64,000 nt of DNA, taken from a virus. Shown one piece after another: positions 2,581 to 64,000 of this stretch; positions within the stretch are counted from its first letter, which is position 1, and each line of letters opens with the position of its first letter. Where the stretch lies: the IMG/VR virus record IMGVR_UViG_3300043444_000502, positions 103,600-167,599 of that record; one strand, given 5' to 3'. The position numbers and the translations under genes are program-made. The notes beneath the pieces were generated by a model that saw only the letters and a list, made by a program, of their open reading frames with translations, had not been told where the DNA came from and did no database searches.

Positions 2581-3622
2581 CGATACACATTGTGGTGCTC
2601 GTAATTCATCTGATATCTTTATGGATTATCAGGAAAAATTTTATACAGATGTTTTCTTTCCATATTTGATAGAAAATCATATCACTGAAATTATTCATTT
2701 GGGTGATTATTATGAACATCGTAAATATGTAAACTTTAAAGCATTAGAACACAATCGTAAAGTTTTCTTGGAAAAATTACGTGAACATAAAATTCATATG
2801 AGAATTATTCCAGGCAATCATGATGTATTTTATAAAAATACGAATGAATTATGTTCATTAAAAGAACTAATGGGTTATTATGTTGATTGTGTTACAATTG
2901 AAATGGAACCAATTGTTGTTGAAGAATATGATATACCAATTGCATTAGTGCCATGGATCAATGCAGAAAATTATGCTAATACGATGGAGTTTATTAAAAA
3001 CTGTAAAGCATCGATTATTGGAGGACACTTTGAATTTTCTGGATTCGAAATGTATAAGGGGATTCCTAATCCTCATGGTATGGATACATCTAACTTTGCT
3101 AGATTTGAAACCGTATTATCTGGCCATTTTCACACTAAGTCTTCTCGCGACAACATTCATTATCTTGGTTCTCAAATGGAATTTACTTGGGGTGATTGCG
3201 ATGATCCAAAATATTTTCATATTTTAGATACACAAACACGTGAAATTGTTGCAGTTAATAATCCATATACACTTCATAAAAAAGTAGTGTACAATGATGA
3301 AAAAATGGATTATAATAATTATGATGTAACAAAATTAGATAATCAATTTGTAAAAGTCATCGTTGAAAAGAAAAGTGATTTTTTTGCATTTGATCGTTTT
3401 ATTGATCGTATTCAACAACGTCCAATTTATGAATTAAAAATAGCTGAATCTTTTACAGAATATTTGGGTGATAATGTAGAAGATGATGAAATTGAGTTGG
3501 ATGATACACAAGTTTTATTAGATTCTTATGTTGAAGCAGTTGACACAGAAGCTGATAAAGAAAAATTAAAAACTCTACTAAGAGGTTTATACGTAGAGGC
3601 TCAAACCGCAGAAGTTATATAA
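2561..3622 (+). CDS. 47: Recombination endonuclease subunit gp47 (Mre11-like)
   Basis: 353 aa calcineurin-fold phosphoesterase, the nuclease half of the SbcCD/Mre11-Rad50-type complex that resects DNA ends for phage recombination-dependent replication. Metal-binding motifs are in order: NDTHCGA (near residue 6), GDYYEHRK (about 49), GNHD (about 85), GGHFE (about 154) and SGHFHT (about 187). Starts inside the end of gp55 and shares its last base with the start of gp46, so expression is coupled to both. Confidence 0.95.
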   Translation: MKIAILNDTHCGARNSSDIFMDYQEKFYTDVFFPYLIENHITEIIHLGDYYEHRKYVNFKALEHNRKVFLEKLREHKIHMRIIPGNHDVFYKNTNELCSLKELMGYYVDCVTIEMEPIVVEEYDIPIALVPWINAENYANTMEFIKNCKASIIGGHFEFSGFEMYKGIPNPHGMDTSNFARFETVLSGHFHTKSSRDNIHYLGSQMEFTWGDCDDPKYFHILDTQTREIVAVNNPYTLHKKVVYNDEKMDYNNYDVTKLDNQFVKVIVEKKSDFFAFDRFIDRIQQRPIYELKIAESFTEYLGDNVEDDEIELDDTQVLLDSYVEAVDTEADKEKLKTLLRGLYVEAQTAEVI

Positions 3623-61284: not shown

Positions 61285-61635
61285 ATGACGCTTGAACAAA
61301 TTTTATGGGCTATTTTAGCCTGGGCAGTTTTAACTGTGATTGCATATTCGCACAGCGGTTGGAAAAAAATTAAAGATTGTTATTATATGTGGTTCACACG
61401 AGAATATTGGACAAATTATAATATTGTTGAAGCTGCAAGTTGGTTGACTAAAGCTATTATTATTGTACCTGGATTAATTTTTGGTATTCAAATCTGGTAT
61501 CTGTATTTTTTAACACTTGCAACAAGTTTAACTCTCATTTGGGCTTCTAATAAAAAATTACTTCCAACATTAGTTGCATTTAATACATTATGGGCATTTA
61601 TCAGTTGTATGGTATTAGCACAGCATTTAATTTAA
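61285..61635 (+). CDS. Multi-pass membrane protein
   Basis: 116 aa with hydrophobic helices at about residues 4-22, 49-66 (WLTKAIIIVPGLIFGIQIWYLYF) and 68-112. A Trp-rich, charged loop lies between the first two. Function unknown. Followed by a 120-base AT-rich gap (61636-61757) with no clear signal. Confidence 0.55.
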   Translation: MTLEQILWAILAWAVLTVIAYSHSGWKKIKDCYYMWFTREYWTNYNIVEAASWLTKAIIIVPGLIFGIQIWYLYFLTLATSLTLIWASNKKLLPTLVAFNTLWAFISCMVLAQHLI

Positions 61636-61757
61636 CTTATTAATTTTCTTAATAATCCTTATTAAAATAATTATTTTCTCGTTTAGCGCTTTGTAGTATA
61701 CATAATTCTAGATTAATAAAATTAATCACTTACAAATAATCAATAAAGGAATTTAAC

Positions 61758-62294
61758 ATGAAAACAGTTGGAGATAAATTAGAGAAATTTGTTGTTACTG
61801 GTATCAATCCCGGCAGTGATCAGTTTTTTGACATTACAGAAGAATCATTTGAAGGTAAGTGGAAAGTTATCGTATACTATCCAAAGGACTTCACATTTGT
61901 TTGTCCTACAGAGATCGTAGCTTATGACAAACTATTCCAAGATTTTGCTGATCGTGATGCAGTTCTATTGACTGGTTCTACAGATAATGAATTCTGTAAG
62001 TTAGCATGGCAAAAACATCATGAAGATCTATCAAAGATCAAGCATATTCAATTTGCTGATACGCAAAGAGATTGGGATAAATCATTGATTGAGCAATTAG
62101 GCGTGTTCTATGCTCCTGCTGGTGCAGCGCTTCGAGCTACATTCATTATTGATCCAGACAATGTGATTCAACATGTTACCGTAAATAACTTAAATGTTGG
62201 TCGTTCACCAGAAGAAACTTTGCGTGTACTTGATGCTCTTCAAACAGGAGAATTATGTGCTTGTAATCGTACAGTCGGTGGAGAAACACTATAA
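61758..62294 (+). CDS. ahpC: Peroxiredoxin AhpC
   Basis: 178 aa 2-Cys peroxiredoxin. Peroxidatic Cys49 in DFTFVCPTE and a C-terminal LCACN pair (Cys167, Cys169) as in AhpC enzymes that are reduced by AhpD rather than AhpF. It reduces H2O2 and organic peroxides. Strong ribosome site (AAAGGA). One-base overlap with ahpD, so the two are made together. Confidence 0.93.
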   Translation: MKTVGDKLEKFVVTGINPGSDQFFDITEESFEGKWKVIVYYPKDFTFVCPTEIVAYDKLFQDFADRDAVLLTGSTDNEFCKLAWQKHHEDLSKIKHIQFADTQRDWDKSLIEQLGVFYAPAGAALRATFIIDPDNVIQHVTVNNLNVGRSPEETLRVLDALQTGELCACNRTVGGETL

Positions 62295-62830
62295 TGGAAT
62301 GGGTTGATCGTCTTAAAAGTAGTATTCCAGATTATGCGAAGGATACTAAATTAAACTTAGATGCTGCAATTAAACGCAGCACTCTTGGTGAAGATGCTCA
62401 ATATATTGCACTTGCTGCAGCTTTTGCAACAGGTAATGGAAAATTAATTTCTTGGATTGCACAAGAATTACATGGACCAGGCGAAGATGGATACGGTGGT
62501 CATAATTTAGAAGTTGATGCAGCTATGACTGCAGCGTCAATTATGGCACAAAATAATGTTTGGTATCCATATGTAGAAATGGTTAATGATCCTGCATTAA
62601 GCGGTTTACCTGCGCAATTGCGTATGAATGCAATTGCAACACACGGAGGTACAACTAAAGCAAAATTTGAAGCATACTCACTAGCCGCATCAATTGTTGG
62701 TAAATGCCATTTTTGTGTGAAGGCACATTATGAAACACTTAAGCAAGAAGGTTACAGTGTTGAACAGTTACGTGATATCGGTCGTATCGCTGCTGTTATA
62801 AATTCTGTAGCAAAAGTGTTAAATAGTTGA
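62294..62830 (+). CDS. ahpD: AhpD-like alkyl hydroperoxide reductase partner
   Basis: 178 aa. GKCHFCVKAH gives the CxxC-xxx-H active site (Cys138, Cys141, His145); the C-terminal GRIAAVINSVAKVL helix is typical. In actinobacteria AhpD passes electrons to AhpC. Here the one-base overlap with ahpC indicates a complete small peroxide-defence unit. Confidence 0.88.
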   Translation: MEWVDRLKSSIPDYAKDTKLNLDAAIKRSTLGEDAQYIALAAAFATGNGKLISWIAQELHGPGEDGYGGHNLEVDAAMTAASIMAQNNVWYPYVEMVNDPALSGLPAQLRMNAIATHGGTTKAKFEAYSLAASIVGKCHFCVKAHYETLKQEGYSVEQLRDIGRIAAVINSVAKVLNS

Positions 62831-62872
62831 AAAAAAATCTCATTTCAACAAAAGTTTTGTATATATAATTCT

Positions 62873-62998
62873 ATGAACAAATTTTCTATAACTTCCCCTA
62901 AAGCAAGAATGACTACATGCGGTCAGGCGAGCATTCGTCCTGAGACATCATGGTCATTAGGCTTTTATCACAATCTTGATGGAGGTCTAACGGGGTAA
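62873..62998 (+). other. Structured region / possible 41-aa ORF
   Basis: An ATG frame of 41 codons (MNKFSITSPKARMTTCGQ..., ending LDGGLTG) coincides with a nested RNA structure: ATGAC (62909-62913) with GTCAT (62953-62957), TCAGG-CGA (62923-62930) with TCG-T-CCTGA (62935-62943), and an outer CCCC/GGGG pair (62895-62898 with 62992-62995). No ribosome site precedes the ATG. It is either a stable RNA or a tiny gene; the strong terminator after it supports a discrete transcript. Confidence 0.4.
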
Positions 62999-63031
62999 GT
63001 AAGAAACAAAAGTTCTAAAGAATTTTTATAC

Positions 63032-63064
63032 AAGCCCCGGACCTACAAAATCCGGGGCTTTTTT
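63032..63064 (+). terminator. Strong rho-independent terminator
   Basis: AAGCCCCGGA (63032-63041) with TCCGGGGCTT (63051-63060), then TTTTTT. Separates the AhpCD region from the tRNA array. Confidence 0.92.
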
Positions 63065-63114
63065 CTTTATGGATCATAGACTTGCGCAATAGTTTACAAA
63101 AATAGTAGACTACT

Positions 63115-63144
63115 ATGTACAAAAAGAAAAAATTAGGGTATAAT
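63115..63144 (+). promoter_or_regulatory. Promoter of the tRNA-Gln transcript
   Basis: ATGTAC (63115-63120), 18 bases, TATAAT (63139-63144). The leader contains a CTGCAGC/GTTGCAG hairpin (63155-63177). Confidence 0.8.
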
Positions 63145-63183
63145 AACTCTTCTTCTGCAGCAGTACAAATGTTGCAGATCTGT

Positions 63184-63257
63184 AGGGCTATAGTGTAGCA
63201 GTAACACAGTTGACTTTGACTCAACTATCGTAGGTGCGAATCCTGCTAGCCCCGCCA
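63184..63257 (+). tRNA. tRNA-Gln (UUG)
   Basis: Cloverleaf with D stem GTGT/ACAC, anticodon stem GTTGA/TCAAC, loop CTTTGAC (anticodon TTG), T arm GTAGG/CCTGC and encoded CCA. The acceptor stem pairs GGGCTA with TAGCCC; position 1 is A opposite C72, a mismatch. Confidence 0.85.
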
Positions 63258-63285
63258 AAATATTTGTAAATAGTTCGAAAAAACT

Positions 63286-63315
63286 ATGTACAAGATTAAA
63301 AAGTTATGGTAGAAT
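63286..63315 (+). promoter_or_regulatory. Promoter of the main tRNA array
   Basis: ATGTAC (63286-63291), 18 bases, TAGAAT (63310-63315), a one-base variant of the usual -10. Confidence 0.65.
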
Positions 63316-63328
63316 CTATCTTAACAAC

Positions 63329-63356
63329 TGATCGAAAGATCAACTGCTCTTTAACA
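63329..63356 (+). promoter_or_regulatory. rrn-type boxB/boxA antitermination-like site
   Basis: TGATC-GAAA-GATCA hairpin (63329-63342) followed by TGCTCTTTAACA (63345-63356), identical to the E. coli rrn boxA core and in the rrn order boxB then boxA. Located between the promoter and the first tRNA-Ser. Confidence 0.65.
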
Positions 63357-63371
63357 ATTTGGATTCTCTTT

Positions 63372-63463
63372 GGAAGCGTGGCAGAGCCCGGTTTATTGCA
63401 CCTGTCTTGAAAACAGACGATCGTTAACGCGGTCCGTGAGTTCGAATCTCACCGCTTCCACCA
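63372..63463 (+). tRNA. tRNA-Ser (UGA)
   Basis: 92 bases, acceptor GGAAGCG/CGCTTCC, anticodon loop CTTGAAA (TGA), a long variable arm as in all Ser tRNAs, T loop TTCGAAT, encoded CCA. Confidence 0.93.
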
Positions 63464-63702
63464 TATTTAATTGCATTAGGTTAGTAGCACCATTAGGTTG
63501 CTATATTGGTTCGAAGATGTTCGACGGAACACGCTGATATAGTTACATGAAAGATGGAAACGAAACTTTAGCTTGCGCTAAGGCTGAGACGGTGGTCACG
63601 ATGGAGTATGCTACACTGTAATGTGGAAATGAACTTATCGATAGACGATATCGTGAGAAGTGCTAGAAGCAAACGTTCATGACATCCTAGTGTAATTAAA
63701 TA
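63464..63702 (+). ncRNA. Large structured spacer RNA between two tRNA-Ser genes
   Basis: The ends 63464-63480 and 63686-63702 pair over all 17 positions (15 Watson-Crick, 2 G-U), so the element fills the gap between the two tRNAs almost exactly. Inside: GTAGCA hairpin (63484-63504), TGTTC-GACG-GAACA (63518-63531), CTTTAGC-TTGC-GCTAAGG (63566-63583), TCACGAT with ATCGTGA (63596-63602/63650-63656) and ATGAAC with GTTCAT (63629-63634/63675-63680); the last two cross, suggesting a pseudoknot or alternative folds. No protein frame is plausible. Comparable in place to the stable RNAs of the T4 tRNA cluster, but not recognised. Confidence 0.6.
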
Positions 63703-63703
63703 T

Positions 63704-63793
63704 GGTGAATTGGCAGAGAGGCTTATTGCGTTTGTTTGCTAAACAAAAGATCCTTCACGGGGTCCATAGGTTCGAATCCTATATTCACCACCA
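63704..63793 (+). tRNA. tRNA-Ser (GCU)
   Basis: 90 bases, acceptor GGTGAAT/ATTCACC, anticodon stem TTTGT/ACAAA with loop TTGCTAA (GCT), long variable arm, encoded CCA. Confidence 0.93.
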
Positions 63794-63838
63794 AGGCAAA
63801 TAGAGATCTTGTGGGTTCATCCACGTTCTCTCAACGTT

Positions 63839-63871
63839 TGTTAGTTTCAATGGGTGGTATAGAAACTAACA
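63839..63871 (+). ncRNA. Hairpin in tRNA spacer
   Basis: TGTTAGTTTC (63839-63848) pairs perfectly with GAAACTAACA (63862-63871) around a 13-base loop; a second hairpin with GTGG/CCAC and AGAGA/TCTCT lies just before (about 63802-63831). Possibly a tRNA-processing signal. Confidence 0.55.
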
Positions 63872-63879
63872 CTAATTTT

Positions 63880-63954
63880 GGGCTGTTAGTGATAATGGGA
63901 GCACGTCGGCTTTGCACGTCGAAGGTAAGAGTTCGATTCTCTTACGGTCCACCA
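63880..63954 (+). tRNA. tRNA-Ala (UGC)
   Basis: 75 bases, acceptor GGGCTGT/ACGGTCC with two G-U pairs, anticodon stem TCGGC/GTCGA, loop TTTGCAC (TGC), T arm AAGAG/CTCTT, encoded CCA. The 8-mer GCACGTCG occurs twice around the anticodon. Confidence 0.88.
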
Positions 63955-63960
63955 AAATAT

Positions 63961-64000
63961 ATCTCAGTAGTGTAATGGCAGCATCACAGTCTCCAAAACT
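63961..64000 (+). tRNA. tRNA-Trp (CCA), cut by window end
   Basis: 5' part only: acceptor strand ATCTCAG (probable), D arm, and anticodon stem ACAGT followed by loop CTCCAAA (anticodon CCA). The 3' half lies beyond the window, so the exact 5' end is not certain. Confidence 0.65.

Follow-up and report, generated by a model that had tools for sequence, protein, structure and literature searches.

A ribosomal-RNA-type boxA at a phage tRNA-array promoter and its recurrence in tRNA arrays of other phages

The DNA analysed here, referred to as the window, comprises 64,000 nucleotides and forms the last 64 kb, and thus the 3′ end, of a linear viral record of 167,599 bp. Near its end, a copy of the boxA element of bacterial ribosomal RNA (rrn) operons lies between a promoter-like sequence and a tRNA gene, and elements of the same kind head tRNA arrays in related and unrelated phages. 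From sequence evidence alone, we put the probability at about 80% that this is a genuine rrn-type boxA which phages place at the promoters of their tRNA arrays, where host Nus factors would provide read-through. With slightly less confidence, we think it likely that phages of at least two bacterial groups, gamma/beta-proteobacteria and Bacteroidota, independently captured the rrn boxA of their hosts and set it ~25 nt 5′ of array tRNAs, making these arrays rRNA-like, Nus-dependent units. At the level of sequence, our comparisons establish the element, its conservation, its spacing, its recurrence, its match to rrn in two bacterial groups and its coupling to promoters.

The boxA leader in the window

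The tRNA array is truncated by the end of the contig after four tRNAs called by ARAGORN, all on the + strand. The true first of these is tRNA-Gln(ttg) (63184–63257), with a promoter of its own (TGTACA-17-TATAAT, 63116–63144) that lacks a boxA, lies upstream of the finding reported here and is also kept in four relatives (L025, L028, L031 and L037). The leader of interest follows on the same strand. Its promoter (63287–63315), recognised from its sequence and its homologues, consists of TGTACA (63287–63292) and TAGAAT (63310–63315) separated by 17 nt, with the TG of an extended −10 box before TAGAAT; the TACAA...TATGGTATAAT portion is invariant or nearly so among the homologues. From these hexamers a transcript start at ~63322 is inferred. 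Downstream lie a boxB-like hairpin, TGATC-GAAA-GATCA, with a 5-bp stem and a GAAA (GNRA) loop (63329–63342), and a boxA of the exact rrn type, TGCTCTTTAACA (63345–63356). The arrangement described by the first-pass annotation, a hairpin and then an exact boxA behind a promoter, is thus present at 63329–63356. That annotation had also set the leader between a promoter and the first tRNA of the array; a promoter and a tRNA do flank it, but the tRNA is not the first, since the tRNA-Gln with its own promoter precedes it, and the boxA leader serves the second tRNA and the rest of the array.

Positions 63346–63356 (GCTCTTTAACA) satisfy the boxA consensus GYTCTTTAANA (PMC5725501), and the ATTTGGA directly 3′ of boxA lengthens the match to rrn spacers. 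The 12-mer TGCTCTTTAACA has no other exact copy in the 167.6-kb record; under a first-order model 0.022 copies are expected in the whole window on both strands, and the 11-nt consensus is expected 0.0009 times per 200 nt leader. Only 15 nt (ATTTGGATTCTCTTT) separate boxA from tRNA-Ser(tga) (63372–63463), the first tRNA behind it, which is followed by a non-coding spacer RNA within the inferred boxA-led transcript (63464–63703), tRNA-Ser(gct) (63704–63793) and tRNA-Ala(tgc) (63880–63954). The spacer RNA between the two tRNA-Ser genes has conserved, complementary ends (TTTAATTGCATTAGG / CCTAGTGTAATTAAA) and is alike in L028; in L031, L037 and L114 short tRNA-like RNAs, not called by ARAGORN, take its place.

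No boxC (UCUGUGUGGG) is present 3′ of boxA, and there is no room for one before the tRNA. In an Rfam scan of 61500–64000 tRNA alone reached the gathering score; no family did so over the leader, and the 16S or 23S rRNA expected downstream of boxA in an rrn operon fragment was not found. The phage record contains no match to NusB or NusG, which fits the use of host factors and proves nothing.

Several other features surround the array. An inverted repeat at 63096–63130 (TAGTAGACTACTA) adjoins or overlaps the −35 region of the tRNA-Gln promoter and is a possible operator; the array starts of L028 and L031 carry a counterpart, TAGTCTACTAAAACGGTAGACTA. A small open reading frame, MNKFSITSPKARMTTCGQASIRPETSWSLGFYHNLDGGLTG (62873–62998), lies right behind a T4-late-like TATATAATTCT/TATAAATCT box and precedes a terminator-like hairpin at ~63035–63064. 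L025 and L037 conserve it, with changes at third positions, and part of it is identical even there; in L028 and L034 it has diverged. Neighbouring genes for an AhpC/TSA peroxiredoxin and a carboxymuconolactone decarboxylase (AhpD-like) occupy 61758–62827 and are possibly a peroxide-detoxifying pair.

Leaders of related and unrelated arrays

Relatives were gathered by a search with a ClpP-like protein (same array order) and by a tRNA-Ser pattern search. Six leaders were aligned, those of the window, L031, L114, L025, L028 and L037; L028 and L029 are near-duplicates and were counted once, giving five distinct related leaders besides the window. Two blocks of this alignment do not vary, the promoter and the boxA core, and the spacer between them ranges from ~7 to 29 nt. 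Absence of boxA conservation in related phages had been named beforehand as an observation that would refute the proposal; the element is kept in all six leaders. The hairpin is retained only in the window, L031 and L114 (two of the five relatives), with loops GAAA, GTAA and GCAA, respectively, all of the GNRA class, and is absent from L025, L028 and L037. With an energy of −5.4 kcal/mol and a z of −1.1 the window hairpin is unremarkable alone; only the relatives lend weight to its GNRA loop and its position. In L028 and L037 boxA starts ~7 nt past the −10 box, which, judged by the predicted promoter, would put it at the extreme 5′ end of the RNA, an awkward position for our model. The arrays of the relatives extend to 19–27 tRNAs; in Methylophilales phage Melnitz, distantly related through PhoH, the tRNAs are merely scattered.

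Scanning IMG/VR with TGYTCTTTAAMAATTTGSA returned 82 loci, over a dozen of which are tRNA arrays; in all of these boxA, in the form GYTCTTTAANA, is on the strand of the tRNA or array RNA that follows it, and TTGACA-TATAAT and a hairpin often precede it; in more than ten distinct loci it stands at the head of the array. In unrelated arrays the start of boxA is ~23–32 nt from the tRNA, a near-constant distance. Phage records of 349, 130, 104 and 58 kb contain boxA once or twice, solely at the array, and the array of the 349-kb phage opens with a promoter, the hairpin TCGGTT-AAACA-AACCGA and boxA. Shuffles, reversed and complement controls and the relatives together rule out chance occurrence of the element. 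A few gamma-type cores 12–17 nt from a tRNA (L511, L474, L216) look like chance and were set aside.

Of 28 gamma/beta-type leaders, 8 have, 1–4 nt upstream of boxA, a GNRA hairpin with a stem of ≥4 bp (500 shuffles: mean 0.09, maximum 2). The stems vary yet pair (GATC/GATC, ATCGGTT/AATCGAT, GATTGA/TCAATC, AGTTAA/TTAACT, GTTGA/TCAAC and TTACTAA/TTAGTAG); in other leaders the loop differs or a hairpin is lacking altogether. Hairpins of any kind exceed shuffles by only a modest margin, and Bacteroidota-type leaders show no hairpin enrichment, so the hairpin was rejected as a universal part. Only its GNRA form stands out, in gamma/beta-type leaders, and by these sequence counts the hairpin is facultative.

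Arrays were also picked without reference to boxA, by a triple T-loop pattern; the resulting frequencies are rough and refer to the matches listed. Among 135 listed arrays, relatives included, there were 20 forward matches at ≥15/17 and none in any of three controls. With relatives excluded, the 201 listed arrays held seven gamma/beta-type and nine TTGA-type cores 20–34 nt from a tRNA, 16 cores against 0–1 in each of the reversed and complemented controls for the same zone. TCTTTGA and TTTGACA were the top enriched 7-mers outside tRNA T-loop sequence in this set. Not all arrays have boxA: the element was present in 15 of the 201 unselected arrays, among the matches listed, and a Karamvirus tRNA array has none. 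Short-query BLAST of the leaders led to named phages (T7-like, T5-like and temperate Bacteroides phages) whose boxA lies elsewhere, and none of the matches inspected was a cultured phage with its tRNA array headed by boxA. Separately, records labelled "Acinetobacter phage MD-2021a", L654 among them, carry sdhABCD and gltA and so look like bacterial chromosome mislabelled as phage.

Host rrn counterparts and the Bacteroidota form

The exact boxA had been read as a hint of a proteobacterial host, and the bacterial records support this. Among those listed, the 19-mer TGCTCTTTAACAATTTGGA is found almost only in gamma- and beta-proteobacteria, mostly in rrn spacers (95 of 125 listed places precede 23S rRNA); the exceptions are a Pedobacter copy and some others outside rrn. 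Every copy of GYTCTTTAANAATTTG in the three genomes examined of Vibrio, Psychrosphaera and Shewanella (one each) belongs to an rrn operon, in a 16S leader or spacer. A Psychrosphaera rrn leader has the hairpin AGAGC-AGAAAG-GCTCT ~4 nt from boxA, a layout similar to that of the phage leaders. A 23-nt pattern sought in hosts gave no match. One gammaproteobacterial MAG locus (L360), which may be cellular or viral, has a boxA 24 nt before tRNA-Met.

The TTGA-type form seen in arrays pointed to Bacteroidota. The 17-mer of Bacteroidota rrn, GTTCTTTGACATATTGG, occurs at ≥120 viral loci, compared with 2 for the reversed 17-mer. In 71 of 126 listed places it lies ≤60 nt 5′ of a tRNA, nearly always at 23–30 nt, and a further 22 places are within 400 nt of one. 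In 41 genomes of the Pedobacter family, by comparison, the 17-mer occurs 24 times, always behind an rrn spacer tRNA (with a 23S start recognised in 21 cases) and never at the head of a tRNA operon. The signal that hosts use for rRNA is therefore used by the phages for tRNA arrays.

Promoters were compared after removal of near-duplicates, which left 47 Bacteroidota-type leaders. TAnnTTTG, known as the Bacteroidota −7 motif, is present in 12 of the 47 (against 1.5 on average and at most 5 in shuffles), and 4 have a sigma-70-like −10 box (shuffle mean 6.7), whereas the gamma/beta-type leaders have TAnnTTTG in 0 of 23 and a sigma-70-like −10 box in 16 of 23. Thus, boxA type and promoter type agree. 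The PhoH protein of one Bacteroidota-type contig is closest to those of Flavobacterium phages; another protein from such contigs had no match, and a Flavobacterium phage related to one contig contains no copy of TTCTTTGACATA. In many Bacteroidota-type arrays (L216, L506, L516, L562, L574, L600 and others) boxA is right behind an intrinsic terminator with no clear promoter in between, an arrangement that is unexplained.

Possible function and comparison with known boxA systems

In rrn operons, boxA binds NusB–S10 and the antitermination complex resists Rho (PMC10250234, PMC6614801); boxA is reported as necessary and sufficient for complex formation (PMC10250234, which cites earlier work), and what boxB does there is called puzzling (PMC10250234). 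An rrn boxA also stands ahead of CRISPR arrays in bacteria (Stringer et al., cited in PMC7862264), and addition of GTTCTTTAAAA to a synthetic CRISPR array raised RNA ~10-fold along its length and reduced polarity (PMC7862264). Since tRNA arrays share this length and lack of translation, loading of an rrn-type complex at the phage leaders is inferred from this known boxA biology. The boxA RNA would be bound by the host NusB–S10 (NusE) heterodimer, which with NusA, NusG and perhaps SuhB would turn RNA polymerase processive and Rho-resistant, as for rRNA. The modified polymerase could then cross kilobases of untranslated tRNA and structured RNA, so that distal tRNAs would be expressed evenly. Factor binding, antitermination, Rho resistance and read-through are all inferred here by analogy with the boxA biology of rrn, suhB and CRISPR arrays; there are no transcript or binding data.

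The same Nus complex might instead serve chiefly as an RNA chaperone or processing scaffold rather than to prevent termination, the leader being held near the RNA exit channel to aid folding and cutting of adjacent tRNAs and structured RNAs. The near-constant boxA-to-tRNA spacing would suit such a role, and the rrn complex has also been proposed to aid folding and processing (PMC6614801, PMC10250234), but an array of many tRNAs has only one or two boxA and most of its tRNAs lack one of their own, and we regard this reading as unlikely. The spacing weighs differently on the idea that abundant leader RNA is a decoy, titrating NusB–S10 from host rrn and helping to shut off ribosome synthesis: a decoy does not need it, and nothing points to a decoy RNA in many copies. 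Redirection of host transcription is common among phages, and the one or two copies do sit at strong-looking promoters; even so, we give a decoy very little credence.

Equally improbable to us is passive carry-over, in which a piece of host rrn spacer holding a tRNA and boxA was captured along with tRNA genes and is functionless in the phage. Host rrn spacers do contain both, but the order is reversed, with boxA before rather than after the tRNA, and the first tRNAs are mostly Gln, Ser, Glu and Leu, not the spacer tRNAs Ile and Ala. Conservation of boxA against a changing spacer, recurrence at a near-constant distance in unrelated arrays and the promoters set in front of boxA also count against it. 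Finally, the position of boxA at the predicted start site in some relatives and its AU-rich flank would suit a promoter or initial-transcribed-region element, or an RNase site, resembling boxA by chance. Two distinct versions, each matching rrn boxA exactly in a bacterial group of its own, and a distance that varies from 7 to 29 nt towards the −10 box and hardly at all towards the tRNA, leave that reading scarcely credible.

Compared with known systems, the preferred reading, a boxA for host Nus read-through, is closest to the boxB-boxA-boxC leader of gamma/beta rrn operons. The phage boxA is identical to rrn spacers over 19 nt and has a hairpin 5′ of it just past the predicted promoter, but boxC is missing and tRNAs follow instead of 16S or 23S. 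CRISPR leaders likewise reuse the rrn boxA before a long non-coding array to keep polymerase processive; they serve a cellular immune array, in contrast to viral tRNA arrays with near-constant boxA-to-tRNA spacing. The suhB 5′ UTR has a non-rrn boxA bound by Nus factors, with a consensus also met here, but there an mRNA is repressed, and the survey that described it left out non-coding RNAs (PMC5725501). Phage use of boxA, a hairpin and host Nus factors is shared with lambda nut, in which, however, boxA precedes boxB and the phage N protein is needed; in the phage leaders the hairpin comes first and is optional, and the lambda-type order was not met in the window, where the hairpin is 5′ of boxA. 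N proteins are short and very diverse.

We found no earlier report of boxA with phage tRNA genes or arrays in the open literature, which is not proof, as most subscription papers lie outside it. While the boxA element is known, what appears to be new is that phage tRNA arrays use it systematically and in a form matched to the host group. How long phage tRNA arrays come to be transcribed to their ends is, as far as we know, unsettled. Such arrays are kilobases of untranslated RNA that should be exposed to Rho, and boxA offers a concrete, host-matched cis element. The arrays would join a short list of non-rRNA boxA users (suhB, CRISPR arrays), and the recurrence suggests a common viral route to long untranslated RNA. 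If true, the boxA variant could mark the host group of uncultured large phages.

Phage boxA-like sites also occur away from tRNAs. The early leader of a T7-like phage (L684, Klebsiella phage vB_KpP_GP-2) resembles the array leaders in carrying rrn-type GCTCTTTAACA copies, with two boxA-like sites at positions 622 and 843, but it precedes a protein-coding early operon without tRNA. A boxA-like site at 3001–3021 of L650 (Bacteroides phage BI-TP1, temperate) is likewise in an early protein-coding leader. In L130 and L158/L694 boxA stands ahead of a shared non-tRNA structured RNA (TTAGGCTGATGACGGCAATCG...), for which ARAGORN gives only an unassigned tRNA, and the L158 record has a second boxA leader 435 nt later.
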